From NCBI GenBank assembly GCA_028753945.1, contig JAPNXP010000004.1, positions 4,650,001 through 4,714,000 of the forward strand: a stretch of DNA of 64,000 nt, written 5' to 3'. The position numbers were made by a program, and so were the translations under genes. The notes beneath the pieces are model-generated. The model had not been told where the DNA came from, made no database searches, and worked only from the letters and a program-made list of their open reading frames with translations. Source of the DNA: Hexactinellida sp. DTS-2022. Taxonomy: Eukaryota > Porifera > Hexactinellida. Shown piece after piece: positions 8,390 through 62,186 of the stretch; positions within the stretch are counted from its first letter, which is position 1, and every line of letters begins with the position of its first letter.

Positions 8390-9354
8390 CTGTATTTCTC
8401 AGTCAATTATCCGTTTGGGTCAACCTATCATCCGTTTGGGTCAACCAATCATCCGATTGGGTCAACCAATCATCCGATTCAGTCAACCAATCATCCGATT
8501 GGGTCAACCAATTATCCGACTCATCCAATGAATATGAATACAGTTGTTTTTCATTTTGGTATACGGTTGGTGTAATTATATAAGCAGGTAAATATGAGGC
8601 ACAAACAAATAATTTGCTTAATAACTTTCAAGATACAAACTTTTATTCTTCAAAAATGGACACAACATTGGGAACCTCAGAATCTGTTGGAAGTAACAGT
8701 GTAGCTCCAAAAGGAGGCAAAACAATTACAAACGAGGTGCGCAGGAGATTAATTGATGCCCACGAAGCAGGCCTGACCTACAAGCAAATGTCCCAACTAT
8801 TTGGTGTAAAAGTAGATACTGCATATAGGATTTGTAGTTTGAGAAAGTATGAAGTGAAGAATAGAGGTGGCTCTAGAGGAAAGAAATTAAATGATACAGA
8901 TGTTCATTTTTTACTTGAAAAGGTTGAATCCCGTCCAGACATCACGCTCAATGAATTGAAAGAAAAACTGGCTTTAAAAGGTGTACAGGTTTCAGTGAGC
9001 ACAATAGCCAGATGTCTTGAAGGGAAATTCATTACAATGAAAAAATTGGAACAAATTCCAATAAATAGGAATTGCGACGAACTGAAGGCATCAAGAAGGG
9101 AACACGCAACATGGTTGATGTCCCAGCATGAGATGGGTGCTCGTTTTTGTTATGTTGATGAGTGCGGGTTTGGACTCTACACATCAAGAACAAGAGGTAG
9201 ATCGTTATCATCCTTAGAATGGAGTCGGATAATTGGTTGACCGAGTCGGATATTTGGTTGACCCAATCGGATGATTGGTTGACTGAATCGGATGATTGGT
9301 TGACTGAATCGGATGATTGGTTGACCCAATCGGATAATTGACTGAGAAATACAG
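8390..9354. mobile_element. Tc1/mariner-family deletion derivative with 21-bp phased terminal arrays
   Basis: Ends are CTGTATTTCTCAG and its reverse complement, flanked by TA (8388-8389, 9355-9356). Just inside each end lies an array of a 21-bp unit containing gggtcaaccaatcatccg. CCG occurs at 8411, 8432, 8453, 8474, 8495 and 8516 on the left. CGG occurs at 9226, 9247, 9268, 9289, 9310 and 9331 on the right. That is six copies per end, all exactly 21 bp apart. The interior holds only the 5' part of a transposase gene. Confidence 0.85.
8656..9209 (+). pseudogene. Tc1/mariner (IS630-type) transposase, 5' half only
   Basis: The ATG at 8656 opens a frame of ~185 residues. The N-terminus is a paired-like helix-turn-helix (RRRLIDAHEAGLTYKQMSQLFGV region, residues ~30-60), followed by a second HTH with SVSTIARCL. 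The protein then reaches the first catalytic aspartate in VDECGF and continues TSRTRGRS, as in IS630/Tc1 proteins whose next block is the catalytic core. There the coding sequence stops abruptly against the right terminal array. The second aspartate and third acidic residue are therefore deleted. The element can only move with help from a full-length relative. Confidence 0.8.
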
Positions 9355-10938: not shown

Positions 10939-11251
10939 TAGTAGTAAATTTGGTTGAGATATTCGGTTGAACTTTAGGTCCACCAGATATTTATATTTGG
11001 TGAACAGAATATATTAGGACAGCAAAATGTCCACATACTGATGTTTGAAATATTTGGGTACAATCTTGGTTTTATCATACAAGATGTGACTATTTTTGCG
11101 CGTATTAAAAGGAGTGCACATAGAGCTTAATCCCTTAATGCTCTGAGTTTAAACAAGTTATTAACTAGATTAGCTACAGATTTGACTCTATTTTTCGATT
11201 CTGTGTATTCGTGTTAAATGAATTTAATAGTCATTTGTAGAACACTGTACA

Positions 11252-12499
11252 ATGGCTAGTGCTTATGGTGTGGGAGAAGAGAGCTTCCTCTCTCACGTGG
11301 AGAGAGTGCGTAGCGAGATACACACTAAGTTCATAAGAGCTCACGAGCTGCTACTGGCTAGAGAAGCCGATCTGTTAGCAGAGTTACAGAGATTGGTAGA
11401 CGAGTATACGGGAGAGGGAATAACTCAACAAATCAAAGAACTTTCTCATTCGAAGGATGTTCTCAAGTTCGCTCTCAAGGGAAATGAGAACAAACTTATA
11501 TTTGAGCAAAGTGCTGCTCCTATTGATGCACGCATTAAAGAATATGAAACTAAACTCCGAACATCAAAAGATATCTACAAGAGTGTGTCATTGGAATGGG
11601 ATGTGGAGCTGGAGAAGAAACTGAGTGTAACAGGTGAGATACGACTTAATGGTGTGAAAGAAGGAATACGAGACTACAAGCAGATAGGAGATCCTGTTGC
11701 GGTGTTTGGGAAACATAACAAGAAAAGGTCTTCTTCACTTGGTGTTTTCTGTTATCCAGCTGGTATAGCTGTTAATCATGTGAATAATAATATTTACATT
11801 TGTGATGGAGGTAATCATCGTGTTCAAGTTTATAGCAAATCGTTTGAATTTGTATTCCAATTCAGTGTAGAGATGAACACACCAGTTGGCATTTGTATAA
11901 AGCAGAACAAAGCATATGTCACACAGTATAGCTCTCATTGTCTCAATGTATATTCTATTAAAGGGAAATATCGTAACTCAATTGGGAAGAAAGGAAAGAA
12001 AGAATTATACTTTGACAGACCAGGAGGACTTGATATTTCCACTGACAGAGATAGAATATATATAGCTGAATATGGAAATGCTAGAATTCAATGTTTGAAT
12101 TTAAATCTCAAATTCAACTCTTTTATTACTGATATTTATGGAGCTATAGATGTCAAACTAACTTCTGATGAGATTGTAGTATTGTCTCTTCGTAATCTCT
12201 GTGTGTCTCTATACACATATTCTCATCAATTGATTCGGGAGATGATTCCTATTGGTAAAGATAATCCAGTTGGTACACCTTCTTCTTTCATTCTCGATAA
12301 ATCTTTGAATATTCTTATTACCGACTTTACTAGGCATTGTGTTTCTATCTTCTCTTTTGGAGGTGGGTTGATCCACAGATTCGGGAAAGAAGGAGAAAAG
12401 AGAGGAGAATTCATAATGCCAAAGGGAATAACATTCGACGTAGAAGGGAGAATTATAGTCACATCTGATAACCCTGAACACTGCATTCAATTATTTTGA
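11252..12499 (+). CDS. Coiled-coil / NHL-repeat protein (TRIM-NHL-like without RING or B-box)
   Basis: Single-exon gene of 415 aa. Residues ~10-145 are rich in E/K/L heptads and read as a coiled coil. From ~150 on there are NHL-type blades: AGIAVNHVNNNIYICDGGNHRVQ at ~170-190, GGLDIS...RIYIAEYGNARIQ at ~260-285, and LIHRFGKEGEKRGEF near the end. NHL propellers bind protein or RNA. The coiled-coil plus NHL layout is that of TRIM2/3/71-like proteins lacking the N-terminal ubiquitin-ligase fingers. The start at 11252 fits because the next in-frame Met is far downstream and upstream sequence is AT-rich non-coding. Three partial or broken relatives lie in the window (2-400, 47450-48235, 48330-48560), so this is a locally expanding family. 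Confidence 0.88.
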   Translation: MASAYGVGEESFLSHVERVRSEIHTKFIRAHELLLAREADLLAELQRLVDEYTGEGITQQIKELSHSKDVLKFALKGNENKLIFEQSAAPIDARIKEYETKLRTSKDIYKSVSLEWDVELEKKLSVTGEIRLNGVKEGIRDYKQIGDPVAVFGKHNKKRSSSLGVFCYPAGIAVNHVNNNIYICDGGNHRVQVYSKSFEFVFQFSVEMNTPVGICIKQNKAYVTQYSSHCLNVYSIKGKYRNSIGKKGKKELYFDRPGGLDISTDRDRIYIAEYGNARIQCLNLNLKFNSFITDIYGAIDVKLTSDEIVVLSLRNLCVSLYTYSHQLIREMIPIGKDNPVGTPSSFILDKSLNILITDFTRHCVSIFSFGGGLIHRFGKEGEKRGEFIMPKGITFDVEGRIIVTSDNPEHCIQLF

Positions 12500-15495: not shown

Positions 15496-16528
15496 TCTAT
15501 AGATATATGCATTGCATAGCTCCCAAGTGACCCGCCCTGGGCGGGTCCGACCCGCATTTGAGCATCGAAACCCGCTGACCCGTGAAGGTCCTCGAAAAAC
15601 CCGCATTGGAAAAATAATTTTCTGGAGCACAATTCTCTAAAATCAGATCAGTATTAAGACTAAGCACGCTTAAAACACCTAAATAGTTCCCTTTTTGTTC
15701 ATCACTCTTATTCAGTAAATAGGTAGTAAAACTTGTCTTTTTCCTATATAGAAACTAACATAAATATGTCAAAATGACTTTACCAATCTAATTTTAAGTA
15801 TATAAGAGGCCGCATTGGACCATCTCAAACTTGGGAGGTATGGACTATTGTAATCATGGTATTGTAATCGAAAAAACATTACTGAAAAATTAATCTCACA
15901 ATGAATACCTAAACTACCGTTTAGTCAAAAATTAATTGTACTCATGTAGAGTTAGTACATCCACAAAAGTCACTGGCATTTTCTAATGAAATAGTCAACT
16001 TAACGTGTGAGAATTTACCATAGGTCTATTTGAAGCCTGCTTATGAAATGCGGGTGTTCTAGTGCCCAACCAAAACCAACTCTTGGCTAAGCCTTTGGGT
16101 CTATGGAAAATGTGGGTGGTGGGCCTATTTTGAAGATGGGCCTGGGGCTGCAGCTCCATCAGCCCCCGTCTTAATCTGGCCCTGCCTTTACTTTCGTCCG
16201 TGCAAACCATGTTGGATATCACTGGCTTGGTATTGGTAGATGCGTGATGTGCCCTATTAGACGCCTACGCTCTCCGACTCACCGAGAACAATTCGTGACG
16301 GGTGTGGTTTCGTCCCAATCCAGGGACTCATCAGGAGGGTAACCCTCGACCACCTATGCAACGCCCGTGCGTCGCTACTTACCACCGTACTGCCGGTAGA
16401 CGCACTCATTAGCTCTACCGGTACTGCCGCTACACTAGGTTCCCCTATTCACTAGTGTACTCCTGCCAGCCATCATCACACAACTATGTCGTGAGAAAAC
16501 TTCTGGCTTATAGGAATATATTCGCCAA
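15496..16528. other. No gene seen; GC-richer patch before the NACHT gene
   Basis: Bases 15525-15610 repeat gacccgc motifs. Bases 16190-16260 (cgtccgtgc...atcactggc) are also seen near 32205-32260, so this is a shared repeat. The patch 16260-16440 is GC-richer than its surroundings and could hold promoter or 5' sequence of the NACHT gene, but nothing decisive is visible. Confidence 0.35.
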
Positions 16529-16862
16529 ATGGATGAGGGTGAATTTGAAAATAAATTTAAGCAGGAATTGACAAGTCAGCTAAAAGAAATGAAACAGTGT
16601 GAATGGTATTTAAAATATTTCTTACAAATGCAGCACAGCACAGTTCAACAATTGTTGGGAGATGATGTAACGGTTAATCTAGCAGAGGTGTTCATCGAAC
16701 TGACAATCATAAAAGAGAAACCTCGATCCATTAATTTCCAAGATGAAACAACCTACAACGAGATTGCTTATCTCAGAAAAATAGCAAATAAAGAAGTGAC
16801 AATACAGCCAATTTACTTCACAAAAGAATTGACGACATACGAATAAAAAATCCAGAAATTTG
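16529..16862 (+). pseudogene. 5' part of a NACHT (NLR-like) gene, cut by the KDZ transposon
   Basis: The ATG at 16529 opens 105 codons of a helical region ending FTKELTTYE, followed by a stop and then GAAATTTG (16855-16862), the left copy of the transposon's target duplication. The remainder of the gene resumes at 22126, where GNPGCGKTFLAKRTALRF is a Walker A motif. In NLR/STAND proteins a linker like VFIELTIIKEKPR usually precedes the NACHT P-loop, so the two halves belong together. The transposon separates the linker from the ATP-binding loop. The gene is an immune-receptor-type ATPase by family. The product is lost here. Confidence 0.75.
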
Positions 16863-16882
16863 GAGCTATTAAAAATGTCAAT

Positions 16883-16997
16883 CCGCATGCGGAATAAGTG
16901 AATCCGCATGCGGAATAAGTGAATCCGCATGCGGTATAAGTAAATCCGCATGCGGAATAAGTAAATCCGCATGCGGAATAAGTAAATCCGCATGCGG
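16883..16997 (+). repeat. Left array: six CCGCATGCGG palindromes at 21-bp spacing
   Basis: Perfect 10-bp palindromes start at 16883, 16904, 16925, 16946, 16967 and 16988, every 21 bp, separated by aataagtgaat-like spacers. The array ends 75 bp before the transposase ATG, so it overlaps the promoter region. 21 bp is two helical turns, which puts all sites on the same face of the DNA. The core CGCATGCG is that of the NRF1 consensus. Confidence 0.95.
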
Positions 16998-17072
16998 AAT
17001 TATTCGTATATGTATGCATCATTGGCGGAGTACAATAATTTATACCTGTTATTGACATTTTTTAGAAATATT

Positions 17073-19891
17073 ATGGCGGAAAACAGTAACAGAGAGCTAC
17101 AGTTAATTCCTTCCAAGAAACGGAGATGGAATGAATTGTATTGTGAAGTGACATCAATATGCGAATCAACAGACACACTAGAAATTACTCTAATACCAGG
17201 TTCTAACTTAGAATACAATGAAGAAGCAGTGTTCGAACATGGATTTCCTTCAGTTCATCAAACGATGGACCCTTGCGGAACTATTTTATTTCCAGATTCT
17301 AATTTAAATTACAACGAAGAAGCAGTGGTCGAACTTGGAATGTCTTTTGTTCACCAATATTGCCATCAATTATTAAAAAAATCACAGTTATGGTATTTAG
17401 AAGAAGCGAATATCTACATAATGCCCGACTATAAAATTAATGAAGGTTAGTGACAAAATAACTTATTTGCTTCAAACTGTCCTTATTAAATTCATCATAT
17501 AAATTATGTTTGTTTTTAGGTAGAGTTACTCTGAAGAATTCCATGGTAATCATCAATAGTAACAAATTAATTTGCTTGGAATGTTCTTCAGTAACATGTA
17601 CCCACTTTCAAGCCTATGAGTTATGTTTTCGGAATCATTGTAACGTGTTTTGCACTGTGGTATCTTCTACAATTACAGAAACAAAGTATTATATACTGAA
17701 CACAAGTACTATTGTATTGCAGAACAAAGAAAGTTTCCATATAATGAAATTTCTAGCAGGAAAATGGTTTTGTGACACTTGCACTAAGCTATGCAATCTG
17801 AAAAAAACACTAGAAAAGATACTAACATTACATCAAGAGGATTTGGAATGTATTTCAGTACCTAAAAACACATTTGAATCCACGATATCTTCAAGCCCAA
17901 TTCCTTTTTCATTTGATTCAATCCAATCACAAATATATACTGAGCAAGCGGTAAATGGAATGAATTTACCTCATAACCTGATTCCAGAAGTTACTATATG
18001 TGAGAATGGATATCAGTATTCAATATTAAATCTTAAGTTAGAAAATATTGGAATCGTCCTTTATTTAGAAAATGATGTGCGCGAGCTGGCTCAATGCAAA
18101 GGTACTTATCTCATTATTGTAACAACAACAATTATCTCTGATTTTTTTGTATATTCCTTTGTTTAGTGTACAGTTCATATTGTATTGGACCGTGTAAATG
18201 CAAATGTGGATATCAAGGAAAAGAGTTCTTACTTCTGAACTTAAATAACAAATATTTCATCCATTATGCTTTGCTGTATGAATATAGTGAATTAATGACT
18301 CATTCCAGGAACCCCCTATTTAGTTATCTGAAGTAAGTTCAATTCTATAATCACACGGCCCAGGATATTCCATATTTTATACGAATATCTCTATTGTAGG
18401 GCAAAGAATGACAAACTAACTAGAACGGGTAATCCACACCAATACAAATATCACATCATGCAGCACGCCTGGAAATCTTATCTACGATTAGTAGATATTG
18501 ATTATGCAAACAATTTTTGTTGCATTAAATGCAAGGAATCTCCTTCAATAATCATTCTGGATGGCATAGCGATGGGGACAACAAAACTCTTGCCTCCAAA
18601 AGACGATAATATTGATGAATCTCAACAATATCCGCTTATTCCGATAGCAGAGCGAGTATATGTTGCTGATGTGAAAACTCGAAAATTATTACTAAGATTT
18701 ATTGAGTCAGGGTTAAGTAGTTTAGATTTTGCAAATGCTCTAGAATCCGTGAAACCTGAATTCGCGAAATATATTGTATATTGTTCTGAACAACATGGTG
18801 TTATAAAAAAAGTTCACCGAAGTTTTCCACTTGTCCAAGAAGTAATCCAAGTGTTCTCTCGATGTGAATCAATCTTTGCTATTGTTCGGATTTCTGCAAT
18901 TTCAGTGGTACAGCGCAAACTACTAGCCGAATTATCGCAACATAAGACTGGGAAGTTATCTGACTTACAATCTATGTATCCCAAAACAAAATTTCTTGAA
19001 CTGCTTATAAATTCGTTACCCCCAGACATTGATATTCCGAATGATAAAATCACATTAAACGAAAATGTTGCTGAAGTTTTAATGAGTATTCTTAAACAAA
19101 TACAAGTCTTAATTCGAAAACCAACCCGAAAAGTGTGTGAAGTGAATGTGTGTGATGTTAAAGACCACTTCAACTGTTATCCAGCATTAAACAACAATTT
19201 CAAGTAAGTTTTATCAATCTATTTTAATTATATTACTTAATTATGTAATATCCTCCGATTTAACAGTGTATATTGATTGCTTCATTCTAGAATTCCTCAG
19301 TATCTCCAAGATCAACACGTTGAAAATCAGAAAAATTGCAAGAAACTTTATCCTAAGCATCAGAGATTTTCCCCTGGATTGCTTATGATGGCTTGTCAGC
19401 ATAGAAAATGTTATGGCTTTGAAGTTATGAAATTAAGGGAGTCAACCGTCCTCATTTTCAATATGTTGTTAAAAAAGTTCAAAACGATGCCGGAAGTAAT
19501 TATATATGACAACGCTTGCAATTTGCATTCAACATGTATAATGAGGTATGTTCTTCATCCAGTATTTTCTAATTATTATTATTGTTAGATATTTGAGTGA
19601 TTTAATTAGCTAGAAATTAACTCTATTCTCTAATTTAGGGACCCATTTCTTTTCCGCAACACAACTTTCTTAATAGACAGATTTCATTCTAAGAATCACC
19701 AATGCAATCCAATATATTCTATGAACACCTGGAACACTGATGATATGAGAGTAATTAATTCACAAACATGTGAGCAAATTTTCTCATTACTTAGACGTAT
19801 TGCGACTCAAGTGGCATATATGAGGATTGAAAATGTGTTTTTAAACTCCCGTTATTTCTTAGCATGTTGGAACAAAGGTATTAATAATTGA
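17073..19891 (+). CDS. KDZ (Dileera/Kyakuja/Zisupton-type) transposase, six exons
   Basis: Exons 17073-17445, 17520-18101, 18167-18332, 18400-19203, 19291-19545 and 19639-19891 join in frame through GT/AG introns of 65-93 bp to give ~810 aa. The protein has cysteine clusters (CLECSSVTC, WFCDTCTKLC, then a CxC knuckle PCKCKCGY around residue 330). A KDZ-type RNase H-fold follows: DG in IILDGIAMG (~427), YDNACNLH (~717), DRFHSKNHQC (~740) and CEQIFSLLRRI (~774). The block PGLLMMACQHRKCYGF also fits the family. The last block resembles the HMGXB3-related domain derived from KDZ transposases. It cuts and joins transposon ends in the nucleus. No disabling change is seen. Exon borders were chosen by eye. 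Confidence 0.85.
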
Positions 19892-19945
19892 GTAAATTAT
19901 GTCTACATACATGTATGTCTAGCTGTCTACAAAAATGAAGTATTA

Positions 19946-21879
19946 CTATATTCTTCTACAATTATTGCACTGAAAACAATCCGAAATTGAAGTGTTCGGG
20001 AGATTATAGCAATGGTTGTGAAACCAAAAGTTGCAGGTGTCGCACTGAATACTGTACTCATTTCCATCTTCTGCGTAAGCAAATTCAGGCAGATTGCAGT
20101 CACAAATACACTCAATTGTATACCTTTGAGGAATGGGGACCTTGCCCGTGCGTTTTCCTCTAGTAATACTAGGAAAGGGAGTGATTACTTCTCTTTCGAT
20201 GCATTTGCGCATATGTTCTCTCATATTAGCCTGGGTCCACGTGAGGTACACTGGATCACTTCCAGTTGCTAATGCAGTAACAACTGCAGCAGCAAAGAGA
20301 CCGCAATCTGTCCAACCTAGTTGTTGTTGTATCTTTGGAACTTGAACTTCAAGCTGCATAGATTTGTCGGCATACAATAGTGCAAGCTGGGTATCGATAT
20401 CAGTTGCTGTAATTCCTTGAAACATCGAGTCATACAAACGTACTCCGTTAACGCTATCGGAACTGGAACACACCCAATGATTTTTCTTGCTATGATGAAT
20501 TTGTACGCTCAACTCGTCACGTGGCATCTTCTTAAAACTAAGGTTCTAAAATAGAAGAATAAAATACGATAGGGTTCACCTACTAACAAGTCAAGTTACA
20601 CTCGAAGCTCCTTGCTATTAGACCAACTCATATAATGATAATATATCGAACTCTCTAATTTTAATACACGTATAGTCGAAAGTATATATTTACTAGGGTG
20701 CAGATGGACAACCGACTACTTTTCCGATTATCGAGGAGACGAAATAGCGAGGTTCCGATTAGGGAAGGTCAACTGTTATGTAATAAGTATCTATTCTAAT
20801 AAACAAGTTACTGAAAGTTTGAAGGATACTTAGAAACTGAATATTTACCTGGGAAAAGAGAGTGTCTTGTAACCCATTAAGTAATGGAAAACAATTCTTC
20901 AAGATATTCTAAAGAAAATTAGCTGTTAATAACAAATTTAGAAATTAATGAATTTGTTATCCTTACGTACACAAAACACATAAATAGAAGTATCTGTCAA
21001 TTGGCATTGGGTTGAAAGTTCTGTTAAACATACTTTCTTCATACTAGGTGATACTTTGTTTAAAGAAGGTAGTATATAGTTCAGTGGCGGTAGAATTTGC
21101 TGAATTGAATGACTATGAGAGGACTGGTCTAGCAGTCCATTGAAATACGAATCGTCATCTATGCTAATTTCTAAGGATCTTTTAGGAGGTGACAAGTAGG
21201 TAGAGCTTTCTAGCAATGATTGCCTTTTGATCGGGGTGCTCGTAGAAAAATGTGTATCTGTTGAGGATTCGGCTTCATTCGTCTTAATCATATTATTTGT
21301 TCGTTTATATGATACCACGATTTCAATAAGCTGCTTTTTAGTTATTCTATATTTAGTGGATTTCGAAACGCATACAAAGGGGATATATTTTGGCCACCAA
21401 ACTGGTTTTAGTTCTTCAACTTCCCAAAACCTCTTATGACGGCCTATTAAGTATACTAAAAATAAATACTCTAATTGGAAATTATATATCAAACGAGCTA
21501 ACATACCAACTGCTTCTTTGACAATTGAAGACACTATTCTTCGTAGCATCTGAGTTGTGTAAGTACTAACATCTTTTCCCAATAAATCTTGTGTTTGCTG
21601 CATTGTATATGATGGTTCATTAGTACAACCTACTGACCTTGGAGAAAGGCTACACCAAATTTCATCTTTCTGAGCAGAAATAAGATTTCGAAACTGTTCG
21701 GGTCCTAGAACAGTAAGGGTTCCTTTCCATGTTGTCACTATCCCCACGACTTCTCCTGTTCGCTTATGAAAATTATCGCACGTCTTGATCAAAGTTTCAC
21801 GACCATTAGATTTATTTATACGGAGCATGTTATAATTTAGAGAAAAATATAAGTTCTGAATTATGAGTAGCATAGTCAT
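19946..21879 (-). CDS. NRF1-like DNA-binding domain + ULP1-like (C48) protease + PHD finger, three exons
   Basis: Exons 21879-20971, 20908-20849 and 20545-19946 (minus) join in phase 0 to 522 aa. Residues ~25-190 resemble the NRF1/Ewg DNA-binding region: a GEVVGIVTTWKGTLTVLGPEQF-type block at ~42-63, then W....E.LKPVWWPKYIPF at 152-168, where NRF1 has KP-I-WWP-ED-IP, then a basic helix. Residues ~295-440 are a C48 peptidase: LTDTSIY...GLQDTL, NHW (H346), YDS (D362), Gln ~398, DCGLFA (C404). Residues ~469-519 form a PHD finger (CxC, CxxC, HxxC, CxxC). The start could instead be Met18. ULP/PHD genes are known passengers of several eukaryotic transposons. I know of no description of the NRF1-type fusion. 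A role in binding the palindrome arrays is inference. Confidence 0.8.
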
Positions 21880-22003
21880 ATATTTATGTTCAAATATGAA
21901 TCAGAGTTGGGTGTCACCTACGGCCGACGAATTCTCTTCCGCATGCAATGACTTTTGCACATGTGATGACTTGTCCGCCTGTGATGCAAATTTATACTAA
22001 ATT

Positions 22004-22097
22004 CCGCATGCGGATTTACTTATACCGCATGCGGATTTACTTAGTCCGCATGCGGATTCTCTTAGTCCGCATGCGGATTCTCTTAGTCCGCATGCGG
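22004..22097 (+). repeat. Right array: five CCGCATGCGG palindromes at 21-bp spacing
   Basis: Copies start at 22004, 22025, 22046, 22067 and 22088, again every 21 bp. A degenerate copy (CCGCATGCAA) sits at 21939 between this array and the start of the NRF1-like gene. The spacer differs from the left array (ttactta, tctctta), while the palindrome is invariant in all eleven copies. Confidence 0.95.
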
Positions 22098-22125
22098 ATT
22101 GACATTTTTAATATATGGAAATTTG

Positions 22126-23540
22126 TGCATCATAGGCAACCCCGGCTGTGGCAAAACATTCCTAGCGAAGAGAACAGCTCTCAGATTTAGCATTAACGAA
22201 CTAATGGGATTCAATACTCATTCTCAATTCCCTGCCGCAATTAAGAATGGCATACTATGGAAGTAGCAAGAATTCAGGAGGATACGAAAGTTCACTCGGT
22301 ATTTATTCAAAAATGGATTTGTCTGGGATCGGATTGCCGGTAGGACCCAGTTGGACAAATTATTTGGCGAAGCATTTGAATGAATCGAGTGGAGGAAAGT
22401 GCCATTCGTGAATACCTGACCCGTCAAGTCGTGATAAAATCAGGCATAATTCTCACGAGTCGCCTCGGGGCATGGACTGACATCTCCTTTGCACACGAAT
22501 TGAAAATAAACAGGTACTTTCAGGTGCTGGGCTTCTCGTCAGCCAACAGAGACCTATATATACGTACACGGATAACGAACGAGAGCAAATTAATTAAATG
22601 TTACCTTCTGATGGAGACACACGATCAGATGAAATAACTGTCTCTAATACCAGTTAACGCATCGTTATTCGCGGCAATACTGAAAGGAGAGGATTCTGCC
22701 TCCTTTAACACACTAACCAAGCTATACTACGAATTAGTACTGTACGTATATAACCAGGAGAGAACTAATAAGAATGGGCTTAAAAGAATACTCTTGAGTC
22801 TCACGCACTTCAAACCTCCACACAGACATACTAGCCTGCTTGCATAGAATAGGATTCATAGCAATCCTCGGAGTGACAAACAGAGATCTGGTGTCGGAAG
22901 ATACAGTAATTCTCAATTTGTGACAGGAAGAATATCCATGCTAGTGCTTAGGTCTACATCACTAGCACTACCGAAAGGAATCCGTCGGACTTATGAAACA
23001 AGTGTGGACATTTGTCCACCTGACTATGCAGGAGTTGGTATCTTGTATCTTCCCTCTATTTGGAACACATTACCTGGACTAAGCAGTACTACAGCGTTAG
23101 GTATATTTCCCACTCCGAGGCTAACTTCTCTCTGTTCCGAATGGTAGTCAGGTTCCTCTGTGGACTCCTGTCTGATAAAGCAGCTGCTCTTCTTTCCATC
23201 CTATACAGGTACCTGACTCCTCAGCCCATTCAACTTATCGATATGCCTGTGAGCTATCAACTTAAGTACCGTTATTCGTATCACCATGAAGGTTGGAAAC
23301 TATTTACCAAAAAATATTTTCAAGTAGCCTCAATTTAGTTTGAAACTAACTCAGATTTAATTCCATTATGGTTCATTAACTTCAAACAAAAATTTCCAAT
23401 ACCAGTGTATCTGTATGTACGAGAATCAGTCTCTCCTAATGAATGATTTGTTTTATCCAGACTCTCAAACTTGTTCGTCGAATTCAACTTATTTATATCG
23501 ACACTAGTCATACCAATCCCACCCAATTCAAATCTTTTTT
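22126..23540 (+). pseudogene. NACHT ATPase domain and C-terminal part of the split NLR-like gene
   Basis: The gene resumes with Walker A (GNPGCGKTFLAKRTALRF, about 22134-22190). It continues through a sensor-1-like block (KSGIILTSRLGAW, ~22440), FQVLGFSSANRDLYI, and a STAND/NACHT C-terminal block (PVNASLFAAIL, ~22650). Then FVHLTMQELVSC (~23010) and VVRFLCGLLSDKAAALL (~23145) follow, as in NLR winged-helix/pre-LRR regions. The blocks lie in different frames with several stops, so the gene was decaying or decayed quickly. Weak continuity runs to about 23540. LRRs are not recognisable. Confidence 0.75.
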
Positions 23541-26925: not shown

Positions 26926-29900
26926 ATGAAGATACATAGCAATTATTTAGGTTTATATATTGAGACATCTTGTCAATATTTATTTTGCTATGTTCGCAAA
27001 TTTTACTCTACTTTCTCTTCTTTCCCACATCTTCTTTCCCAAAGTACTTGTTATGTAATATTGGACTTGTTTAATATTTTTATTCATCAGTGTGGCGATA
27101 TAGAGGTAAATCCTGGACCAAGACAATTAGGTAAATAAACTGAATTAATTACATTATTAACCTGAATTGATATTGAATACTTATTTTTAATTTCTAGAAT
27201 TCAGAAACTGGGCACATGGAGAACTGCAAAAAATCATTCAAGCAATCTTTTCGTTAGAAATGAAATGGCACTAAATAGAAGAATTACTAGTCAAGAATCA
27301 AAATTGGCGTTCCCCTAATTCTTTCTGGGGTAAGTTGGCGAAGTGTATTTATAATAGAAATCGAGCACCACTGAGGGCAAAAATAATGCAATTATGGAGA
27401 AAAAATTATTCTGTTATTCGGAAAAAATTGGTTATTCTAAATGAATCTAGTCAGACTAACTCATCAAATTTGAGTTTACTTGTCAGTATTAAATTTGAAT
27501 ACCTTCCTTCAACTTCCAGTTTCCATATAGAATGTACCCCGTTCAAAAGTCCGGATAGTTGCATTAATTTGCTTTCTAATTCCAAATACTGTCAAGATAG
27601 TAGCACTACCAAATCTACTCTTATCGATACGTTCCAACAACCTGTTGATTGTGATTCAGCTTCATCCACAGACAATCATGATTTTAATAACACTGACTTA
27701 TTACTGCAAAATCGAGATGGAAAATATTCTGGCGATCGTAAGTCATATCAATTTGAATTGACCCAGAATGAATGGTTATCATTATACGAGTCAAAGAGAG
27801 CAGTTACACTGCATAGAGAATGGACGAATGTTTTTAACAAAAATTTGCTAACTTTTTTTCCATTTTGCGTCTTAAAATTTTTGTATCATCGTATCAACCT
27901 CAATTTCGCTCGAATTAACTGTCCCTATTTTGTTGCTGAGGCGAAATGCAAATTTGCAAGGTGTGTCAGCCTCAGAATTACCATAGATCGTCTACCAAGC
28001 TTTGCAAATCAAAATTTAATAGTCACAGTTATAGCTAATGGAACACTTTCAAGGCAACATTTTGATAATGAAACATCTCATAGTCGCAAATTATCAGGTC
28101 AAGCTAGAAAATTAGTTGCCGAAGAGCTAAACTATACATTGCCAAGTAAGTATCATTATGAGCAGTTTGATAATACTTTGAATTTAACAGTTGCGTCACA
28201 TGGGAATATGAACTCTCTAAAATCTGCCGATGTAATACGAAAAATAAAGTCTGAAGTTGCTTCAAAATGTAGATTTAGTGACGAGATGTTCCAAGATGTT
28301 CTAATTACCCAAAAGACATATGATAGTAACATTAAAGGAACTGTCTTTAATGGGTATATTCAAACAATATCTAGAAATCCTTTTGTTATACACTTGCACA
28401 CTGAAGAGCAAATACGTCTCCTAAAAAAGATTCCTTCAGAAAAATTTACACTACATCTAGATGCCACTGGATCGGTTATTCGTAAATTAGATAAGACTCA
28501 TAAAAGTTATCTTTATTATGCTTTAACAATAAAACACCCTTTCTCAAAGGTTAGCCCCATCCCGCTGGCTGAGATGATCAGTAGCGATCAAACCAATGTA
28601 GAAATAACTCATTTCCTCCTAAAATGGCGTTACAATGTCAAGAAGGTTCTAAAGAAAGATATTACTCCAACTCACATTGAAGTTGACTTTAGTTGGCCAA
28701 TGTTACATAGTACATGCAATGCATTCAATTCTCAAAGTTTAGATCTCTACCTGACCAACTGCTGGGAAAGACTTCATCATAGTGACTCAGAAGTAAATTC
28801 TATCAACTCAATACTCCACATTTGCTCAGCTCATATAATGCACCGGTTTAGCTATAAACTTGAAAAGAAAAGTTCGCTAAAGCCAACCAAAAGGACCAAA
28901 CGAATTATTATGTATATAATGGCTAGACTAACAAGCTCAACAACTATGGAAGATTTAAGTCAACTTTTCACTGCTTTGTGCATGTCCTGTTTCTCAAAGT
29001 TGAGGTACCCAGAAACTAAACAATATTTTACTAAACTTCAAGATGCAATATTATTTACTGTGAATAATAACGATAATACATCTGAAATAGAATACCTCGA
29101 AGAATTGGACGAAGAAATGCCAAATACACAAGGGGATAGCTTGACCTATAAAGATAAGTCACCATTTGGCAAACATTTTCAGAATATCTATAATAAGTGT
29201 TCAAATTTTATAGAAAATTTAAGCAGAAAATATATCCATCATTCTTTCGAGGAAAACAATGAATTTTATTTACCTGATTTACCGGACTTTTTGGCAACAC
29301 ACTATATGCCAATTTCTCCACTATGGACAGGTTTAATGCTTGGCCCGATATTATATCCTGGGAAAGTTGATGTTACCTTCACGAATTCTATAGCTGAAAA
29401 TTGGATGCGCATTGTCAAAATTAGTATATTGCAAAATGAAACTAAGTTAAGACCTGGGGACTTTATACGAAAGGTACGTGAAAGTATTTCTGGCAGAATA
29501 AAAGCATTTAATTTTGCATTCTTACCCATAAGTAACAAATTGATTAAAAGGATAAAGGTGGAAAAGAATGATAACACACAGGTGGAAGAAATCTGGAAGA
29601 GAGGTAAGAGAAGTAAACGTAGTTACTTTAGGAAAGCTGAACTTTCTACAGCCCGAAGTATAGACAACCAAGTTAGAAATAAAGGTATAGATACACAAAA
29701 TTCTGAAGGGAATAAGAAAAAACGAAGAAAGCGAAGGATAGATAGTAGCAGGATACAAAGTGACCATACATGTTGTGTATCGGGAAAAAATAATTATTTA
29801 CATGTAGAATCAAATGAATTATCAAGTGATGATAGTATATTTGTTACAAAATCTGATGATATCCAGACATACGATCACGGAGAGTTTAGCCCAGTAAACC

Positions 29901-30508
29901 CATCATGGCAAAAACAGAGGTGTAAAGAAATGATGCTTACATTTGTTGGTGGAGTTATTTATGAAAATCAGGCTATTAATAAAACCCTGAAAATACGTAA
30001 ATTGGTTCCCTCGAAGGAAAAGCGTATTGCACCGGATGGAAATTGTTTGTTCAGTTCTCTCTCGTATATCATAACAGGATCTGATCATAATCACAGAGAA
30101 ATAAGGGAGCTATTAGTATTAAATATGCAAGGGAAATACAGAGATTGTTGTTCAAAATACTGCAATTCACACTCAAATTTAAACGCTACAAACAACTACT
30201 CTTCAATTGAGGAGTATATAAAATCAAGTAAGATTGACAGAACTGGTTCTTGGGGAACCGACTTGGAAATATTTTTAGCCGCACAATTGCTTAAAACAGA
30301 TATTTTCTTATACAAGGATTTTGACCACCTTTGGTATAAATTTTCGGGGCATGGATTTAACGATAAGAAAGATGTCCATAATTTAACAGAAAAGAGGATA
30401 TATCTTCGTCTCTACTTAAGTCATTTTCAACCAATAACAAAAGTTAATTCAGAAGTTAAAGTGGGACAAAGCAACATATGGGAATTTGACCCTACGAAGT
30501 TTAATTAG
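26926..30508 (+). CDS. 2A-like leader, Mutator-like transposase and C-terminal OTU protease domain (one in-frame stop)
   Basis: Exon 1 (26926-27130) encodes a hydrophobic leader ending GDIEVNPGP, a match to the 2A ribosome-skipping motif D(V/I)ExNPGP. It splices in frame to exon 2 (27198-30508). Exon 2 has one TAA at 27272-27274 in an otherwise continuous frame of ~1,075 codons after it. Counting from 27335, a DDE-type fold is suggested by HLDATGS (~375), VDFSWP (~451), CSAHIMH (~498) and NSIAENWMRIVK (~687). A lysine/arginine-rich linker follows at ~760-810. From ~895 there is an OTU domain: DGNCLFSSLSY with the catalytic Cys, SWGTDLEI, and a late His in LYLSHFQP. OTU domains are deubiquitinase-like. 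The single stop may be a recent disabling change. Exon 1 could belong to another element. Confidence 0.7.
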
Positions 30509-61860: not shown

Positions 61861-62186
61861 CAGGGTTCCGCAAACTTTCATTTATATCAGGCCACATAAT
61901 CTTTACAAAATTTTCCTCAGGCCGCAAACAATATCGAGAAATTTTTCGAAATTTCTAACAAAACTATTATGTTGTTGTAATACTAGAACTATACTAATTT
62001 ATAAGCAAAAAGTGCATAAAGGACTCTAATCAAAAGGTAATAATCAGGTGTATATGTGTACAGGACAGATGAAAATTAGAAATGTCTCTCAGGCCAAACA
62101 TTATACAAATTTCCATTGGGCTATCAGGCTACACATAAGGTTGTTTCAGGCCGCATGCGGCCTGAAAAACCTAGTTTTCGGAACCC
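61861..62186. mobile_element. hAT-type insert abutting the second MITE
   Basis: The ends agggttccgcaaactttcat and gttttcggaaccct are inverted. It is bordered by tttacaca (left) and tttacagt (right), an imperfect 8-bp duplication. A perfect small palindrome, caggccgcatgcggcctg, lies at 62147-62164. Confidence 0.6.

Follow-up and report, generated by a model that had tools for sequence, protein, structure and literature searches.

DNA transposons of the KDZ/Zisupton group carry a KDZ transposase domain, a CxC4-like cysteine cluster and inverted termini. Zisupton produces target duplications of 8 bp, and the accessory genes described for KDZ elements, in fungi, encode TET/JBP dioxygenases (PMC12730594; PMC numbers stand throughout for excerpts of the papers). 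We analysed a stretch of 64,000 nucleotides (the window) from the glass sponge Hexactinellida sp. DTS-2022 (assembly GCA_028753945.1, contig JAPNXP010000004.1, positions 4,650,001 to 4,714,000), which holds an element with these common features, possibly including the cysteine cluster, which scores under its cut-off. Unlike the described KDZ/Zisupton elements, it adds an NRF1-type second gene and matching phased palindrome arrays. It is one of a lineage of KDZ elements whose second protein is related to NRF1 and whose two ends both bear NRF1-like palindromes specific to the family.

The second protein shares with NRF1, Ewg and P3A2 a colinear putative dimerisation and DNA-binding region, the WWP linker, the equivalent of Arg206 and the core of the site. 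In contrast to these regulators, the element protein is 26% identical to human NRF1 over 124 columns, and element proteins are multicopy, mobile and fused to Ulp1-like and PHD regions, with sites diversified by family. Base contacts in human NRF1 run from Arg206 at the central TG over Arg244 at the two pairs that follow to Asn242 at the outermost G (PMC10810270); in the window family Asn242 and Arg244 are replaced.

TNPA of En/Spm (CACTA) is likewise the second protein encoded by its element; it binds repeated subterminal motifs and influences both transposition and expression (PMC2613891), as is proposed below for the NRF1-like protein. The protein is presumably a different one, the transposase and the termini differ, and the features of CACTA elements are absent: the window tips are GAGCTATT/CATATATT, the duplication has 8 bp and the transposase is of the KDZ type. 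The likeness to the En/Spm system is an analogy of function only. In TNPA-type systems motif and protein are thought to diversify together, and coevolution of transposon accessory binding proteins with subterminal repeats was suspected earlier; those binding proteins show little similarity from one element to another (PMC2613891), whereas the NRF1-like domain can be aligned across families. Harbinger-type Myb/SANT proteins (Nuwa) likewise belong to two-gene DNA transposons with a separate DNA-binding protein (PMC12730594), but differ in their DNA-binding domain and transposase.

The element and its two genes

Tips and flanks were lined up with other copies, and the element spans exactly 16863–22117 (5255 bp), as the preliminary description of this DNA, a reading of its letters without database searches, had placed it. 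The ends are exact because both tips are clear and are flanked by GAAATTTG, the left copy of this target site duplication (16855–16862) matching the right (22118–22125) at 8/8 bases. The left terminus (16863–17002, transposase side, tip GAGCTATTAAAAATGTCAAT) is an inverted repeat of the right (22001–22117, NRF1-gene side, minus-strand tip CATATATTAAAAATGTCAAT). Alignment of the copies gives CATATATTAAAAATG as terminal sequence at the NRF1-gene side and GAGCTATTAAAAATG at the transposase side, and the 130-nt terminal arms, 90% complementary, are terminal inverted repeats.

Each terminus holds a palindrome array with a 21-bp phase: six CCGCATGCGG on the left (starting at 16883, 16904, 16925, 16946, 16967 and 16988, and ending at 16997) and five on the right (22004, 22025, 22046, 22067 and 22088, ending at 22097). 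The window has only one further CCGCATGCGG, alone at 62151, giving 12 in all against a mean of 0.01 expected per window by chance (100 dinucleotide shuffles). The eleven array palindromes had been called invariant, and they differ at 0/250 pairwise base comparisons, as opposed to 24/160 in the spacers. A single degenerate site, CCGCATGC, is read in the sequence at 21939–21946, between the right array and the second gene.

The transposase gene (17073–19891, plus strand) encodes 810 amino acids in a single open frame with GT-AG introns (exons 17073–17445, 17520–18101, 18167–18332, 18400–19203, 19291–19545 and 19639–19891). Its product matches the KDZ profile PF18758 at 33.2 bits (cut-off 26.6, E 5.6e-8), in line with the family first proposed for it; the CxC4 cluster reaches 22.4 bits (E 1.2e-4), under the cut-off of 26.9. 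Acidic motifs begin at residues 427 (LDG), 714 (YDN) and 771 (CEQ), which may hold the catalytic acidic residues.

The second gene (19946–21828, minus strand) is convergent with the first and has four exons (21828–21507, 21443–20971, 20908–20849 and 20545–19946). The model gives a protein of 484 amino acids, or 464 if the short third exon is skipped, which leaves the frame open; the preliminary description had given 522. The NRF1-like dimerisation and DNA-binding region lies at 21301–21828 (minus strand), interrupted by a 63-bp intron at 21444–21506, and the protein contains the KPVWWP..IP signature on which the kinship to NRF1/Ewg had been based. A profile search, proposed there as a check, also found this kinship: the spliced protein matches PF10491 at 26.3 bits (cut-off 23.5, E 7.3e-6), the match covering residues 83–145 and only positions 123–185 of the 213 in the profile, while the unspliced 320-aa frame by itself stays under the cut-off (21.2 bits). 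Among structures of NRF1, 8k3d (E 1.7e-6) and 8k4l (E 4.1e-6) are matched, and in hhalign (probability 97.8, E 8e-13) a profile of the family is colinear with that of NRF1, starting in the dimerisation region and continuing into the DNA-binding region. The predicted structure of the dimerisation exon is a weak model; its top Foldseek ranks are mostly SRF/MEF2-type MADS domains, and no Foldseek match with E <0.19 was found for it. At the contact positions, the equivalent of Arg206 is kept, while Asn242 is replaced by Cys and Arg244 by Ser, and we therefore class the product as an NRF1-related protein, not as NRF1.

The last exon (19946–20545, minus strand) encodes an Ulp1-like (C48) peptidase region and a C-terminal PHD finger. 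By eye, the former shows HW, LYDS and Q-x5-DCG motifs, presumably the signature of an Ulp1-like C48 peptidase. The window protein itself has no match to the C48 profile, and its PHD region stays under the cut-off (E 3e-4 to 1.7e-3); both regions are homologous to the protein P0004, whose matches to PF02902 and PF00628 exceed the cut-offs. A near-identical gene is present in a public assembly (296-aa frame P0001, 90% over 56% of the query).

Copies, gene linkage and palindrome types across the genome

The assembly that holds the window (112.4 Mb in 18 contigs, numbered here with C; NRF1-like loci are numbered with L) was searched for relatives. The window copy shares 99.96% identity with the copy at C1:7023xxx and 99.85% with that on C17, each over 2677 bp and at another site, so the family has moved recently. 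A further copy at C1:9392xxx is flanked by the 8-bp duplication CTGTTTTG and the C17 copy by ATATTTTT; the duplication around the C1:7023xxx copy matches at 7 bp, and in five other families 7 or 8 bases match by eye. The window element is a recently mobile DNA transposon of the KDZ superfamily.

The NRF1-like region has at least 129 matches in the genome, merged by hand into at least 107 loci, and the transposase at least 130, merged into at least 43; these counts are lower bounds, as 125 of 190 first-look candidates were scored for the former and 56 of 470 for the latter. Forty of the 43 KDZ loci found have a convergent NRF1-like locus beside them on the opposite strand, no farther off than 4.6 kb and with a median gap of 1.7 kb; by chance, 200 random placements gave 0.2 such loci on average and never more than 3. 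The Pfam KDZ model has 16 matches in the genome, 15 of them in or beside the 43 loci.

Upstream DNA was read for 59 of the 107 NRF1-like loci. The count is of loci with an exon-1 match and at least 600 bp upstream, each gene taken once, and passes over L021/L049, L029/L050, L040, L047 and loci that repeat another gene. A strict array was defined as two or more identical perfect 10-bp palindromes with at least 4 G/C, 17–26 bp apart and within 600 bp; 31 of the 59 genes have one of their own, while none was present in 95 window tiles or in 31 stretches taken downstream of the genes. Looser arrays (degenerate, wider-spaced or farther off) were seen by eye at 19 more. Eight palindrome types occur, differing by gene family: CCGCATGCGG, TCGCATGCGA, GCGCATGCGC, GTGCATGCAC, GAGCATGCTC, GCACATGTGC, GGACATGTCC and GCGCTAGCGC. 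An outlier NRF1-like family (L058/L061) has the odd-length palindrome TTCGACAGTCGAA at 22 bp and keeps the Arg206 equivalent, and sites at L046, L063, L066 and L087 are mixed or imperfect. At L016, 49% identical to the window protein over the second exon, the array consists of degenerate CCGCATGCGG sites, with a CCGCATGCGG pair at a distance of about 3 kb (C4:1619007). L079 has a GCGCATGCGC pair about 1.5 kb upstream, its type being assigned from its near relative L082. The strict GGACATGTCC array near L084 was rejected as its own, since it is part of the terminus of an adjacent element, and so was the GCGCATGCGC near L072, which lies outside the tip of the L072 element.

The far-end palindrome was predicted from the gene-end type before nine transposase-side stretches were read. 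An array was present in seven, each time of the gene-end palindrome (7/7): GCACATGTGC four times, GCGCATGCGC eight, GAGCATGCTC three, GTGCATGCAC seven, TCGCATGCGA five and, in another case, two, and GCGCTAGCGC four. No far-end array was seen in the stretches read for L111 and L112. Covariation had been put forward as a check in the preliminary description, and other KDZ elements indeed pair other NRF1-like genes with other palindromes, the same at both ends.

Genome-wide, phased pairs number 90 for CCGCATGCGG, 150 for GCGCATGCGC and 229 for GAGCATGCTC, and 0 for each reversed pattern. Among the first 50 places listed for each type, the nearest KDZ or NRF1-like match is, by eye, no more than about 3 kb from 10 of 10 CCGCATGCGG clusters and no more than about 8 kb from 14 of 17 GCGCATGCGC clusters (all on C1); the clusters farther from such matches are at C1:3942018, 11492501 and 11521952. 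Pairs of GAGCATGCTC arrays 1–4 kb apart without transposase or NRF1-like matches (C1:6911273–6912485, C1:10175396–10177075, C2:520723–524462 and C2:5248181–5251850) may be non-autonomous elements.

Ordinary slippage might produce such tandem repeats, with a merely coincidental likeness to the NRF1 site, and the number of gene-end palindromes does range from 2 to 40 among copies of the window family. The copy with 40 CCGCATGCGG, against five in the window (L008, C12:6030475–6034398), shows that an array can expand greatly. However, in 14 of 16 arrays the spacers vary and the palindromes vary less: base differences amount to 0.5% in palindromes and 9.1% in spacers, or 2.2% and 11.1% without the 40-copy array, in units that were picked by palindrome likeness, a choice that favours low palindrome variation. 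The array of L073 shows no variation in either. With the identical type at both ends and the empty reversed-pattern controls as further points against it, slippage is hardly credible as an explanation.

Probable role of the NRF1-like protein and proposed site recognition

We consider it likely that the factor which binds the ends and promoters of an element is encoded by that element itself, in a role similar to that of TNPA. An NRF1-like dimer would bind the palindromes, one dimer per site, and the two phased arrays would then present both ends to the KDZ transposase. The same protein may also control both promoters, because each of the two convergent genes has one of the arrays close upstream. 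Each lineage would retain its own protein and its own palindrome, the two changing together around the NRF1 site GCGCATGCGC. The interpretation in the preliminary description, of a self-encoded factor for ends and promoters with kinship to NRF1, is supported.

Alternatively, the NRF1-like protein could mainly be the transcription factor of the element, activating or repressing its two genes from the arrays without a part in end pairing. NRF1 is a promoter-binding factor (PMC10810270), and the window arrays are separated from the start codons that follow them by about 75 and 175 bp. In many families, however, the tip motif TATTRAAAA and the first palindrome start 16 bp apart, an offset that ties the palindrome to the end and not to the gene. 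The close pairs of GAGCATGCTC arrays lacking gene matches would likewise fit arrays that serve mobility. We regard this alternative as tenable, though falling somewhat short of an even chance.

The arrays could also be read by the KDZ transposase, which varies from family to family and shows linkage with these arrays too, the NRF1-like protein being a passenger or acting elsewhere. Such a role would leave unexplained why the palindromes group around the known site of NRF1, with one widespread type exactly GCGCATGCGC and 7 of 8 types having half-sites at most one base from the human GCGCA (as are 16 of the 1024 possible half-sites, the families being related), and why the NRF1-like gene accompanies nearly all KDZ loci found; it appears improbable. 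Recruitment of host NRF1 by the arrays, with the element copy as a decoy or regulator of it, would be in keeping with the ordinary NRF1 gene of the host (L035; PF10491 E 3e-50, 8k4l E 5e-36) and with several families that have exactly the canonical site. But 7 of 8 types depart from the canonical sequence in both half-sites, by family, which is unfavoured under one conserved host factor, and a change of the outer base to A or T weakens binding by human NRF1 4- to 7-fold in isothermal titration calorimetry (PMC10810270). We judge host recruitment very improbable.

The Arg206 equivalent is Arg in 54 of the 56 genes covered, the other two being decayed copies with a stop and an unaligned residue, and half-site position 2, the base that Arg206 contacts, is constant throughout the eight types, in contrast to the variable positions 1, 3, 4 and 5. 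Residue 244 is Lys in one GCGC subgroup, Ser in two GAGC families, Ala with GTGC and Tyr with GCAC. In the 12 families without Cys or Tyr at 242, a subset chosen post hoc, Lys or Arg at 244 goes with CG at positions 4–3 (5:1 against 0:6, p 0.015). Palindrome type tracks the protein tree: across the 20 families that carry a label (L087 and those lacking an array set aside) it changes 10 times, against 12.5 ± 0.7 in shuffles, of which 1 in 300 was as low. A residue-by-base recognition code is a lead suggested by sequence comparison, not a result.

Several observations weigh against an element-encoded factor coevolving with its site. Three of the 43 KDZ loci lack an adjacent NRF1-like match, and the KDZ-domain match at C1:9598075 has none listed nearby. 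For nine of the 59 genes, about 1 kb of upstream DNA contains no array belonging to the gene itself (L048, L056, L062, L069, L072, L075, L076, L077 and L079). The preliminary description had named as damaging either the lack of a significant NRF1-family match or copies with the protein and without the palindromes; the match is significant, and these nine genes touch on the latter. The L014 array varies more in its palindromes than in its spacers. The transposase differs by family too, and so is a possible reader of the arrays. At residue 244 there are misfits, namely L083 (GAGC, Arg), L031 (GCGC, Ser) and the CCGC, TCGC and CTAG families (Ser), and the window protein has Cys and Ser at 242 and 244, yet CG is kept at half-site positions 4–3. 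Over 18 families, the association of Lys or Arg at 244 with CG at 4–3 is not significant (Fisher p 0.32; L016, L046, L058, L066, L087 and families without an array set aside in these counts), and a tree-based test leaves 1–3 independent pairs for the residue-244 pattern. The GCGCTAGCGC and TTCGACAGTCGAA families retain Arg206 without a CATG centre. Finally, the Mantel correlation between protein and motif is weak (r 0.19, p 0.037; 19 families, L016, L046, L058 and L087 set aside).

Relatives, descent and neighbouring features

Searches of 5.8 billion proteins with the NRF1-like region returned 33 and 26 matches, all those with a named source coming from Oopsacas minuta, and viral contigs scanned with the alignment of the NRF1-like domain yielded no relative. 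In a tree of 27 rows, a long branch sets human and host NRF1 apart from the element proteins. The element families have an intron after the glycine that precedes the GR-x-x-x-FW stretch, a place across which the frame of host NRF1 stays open. Among the papers listed from an open-licence library, judged by title or abstract start, none pairs NRF1 with KDZ/Zisupton, with a transposase or TnpA-type subterminal binding or with transposon domestication, and none was found that joins Zisupton with Ulp1 and subterminal repeats; a term search of the Oopsacas and Aphrocallistes genome papers found no mention of NRF1 or KDZ.

The NRF1-like genes of these elements tie a core animal regulator to a transposon superfamily, either captured by the element or given by it. 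Descent of animal NRF1 from an end-binding protein of a KDZ transposon is rather unlikely in our estimation; if true, NRF1 and its GCGCATGCGC promoter sites would be a domesticated pair of transposon protein and site, with mobile relatives still present and diversifying in glass sponges. Within a single genome, an alignable domain whose human relative has been solved on DNA has radiated together with eight or more types of palindrome, and this radiation makes both the protein–DNA recognition code and the change of transposon end specificity directly testable.

The window contains further features outside the element. About 500 bp to its left lies a type III hammerhead ribozyme (16302–16355, minus strand; RF00008, 53.3 bits, gathering score 48.5), and to its right a 104-aa frame (23024–23338, plus strand) with a weak match, under the cut-off, to the NLRC4 helical domain (E 0.012), perhaps a remnant of an immune-receptor-like gene. 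An unbroken 1077-aa frame at 27275–30508 (plus strand) has a C-terminal OTU-like cysteine protease domain (PF02338, E 1.2e-9), matches no other Pfam family and is possibly another transposon. On the same strand, a 218-aa frame at 8584–9240 has matches, under the cut-offs, to Tc1/mariner-type helix-turn-helix domains, and a 422-aa frame at 11231–12499 contains NHL repeats (E 4.7e-26).

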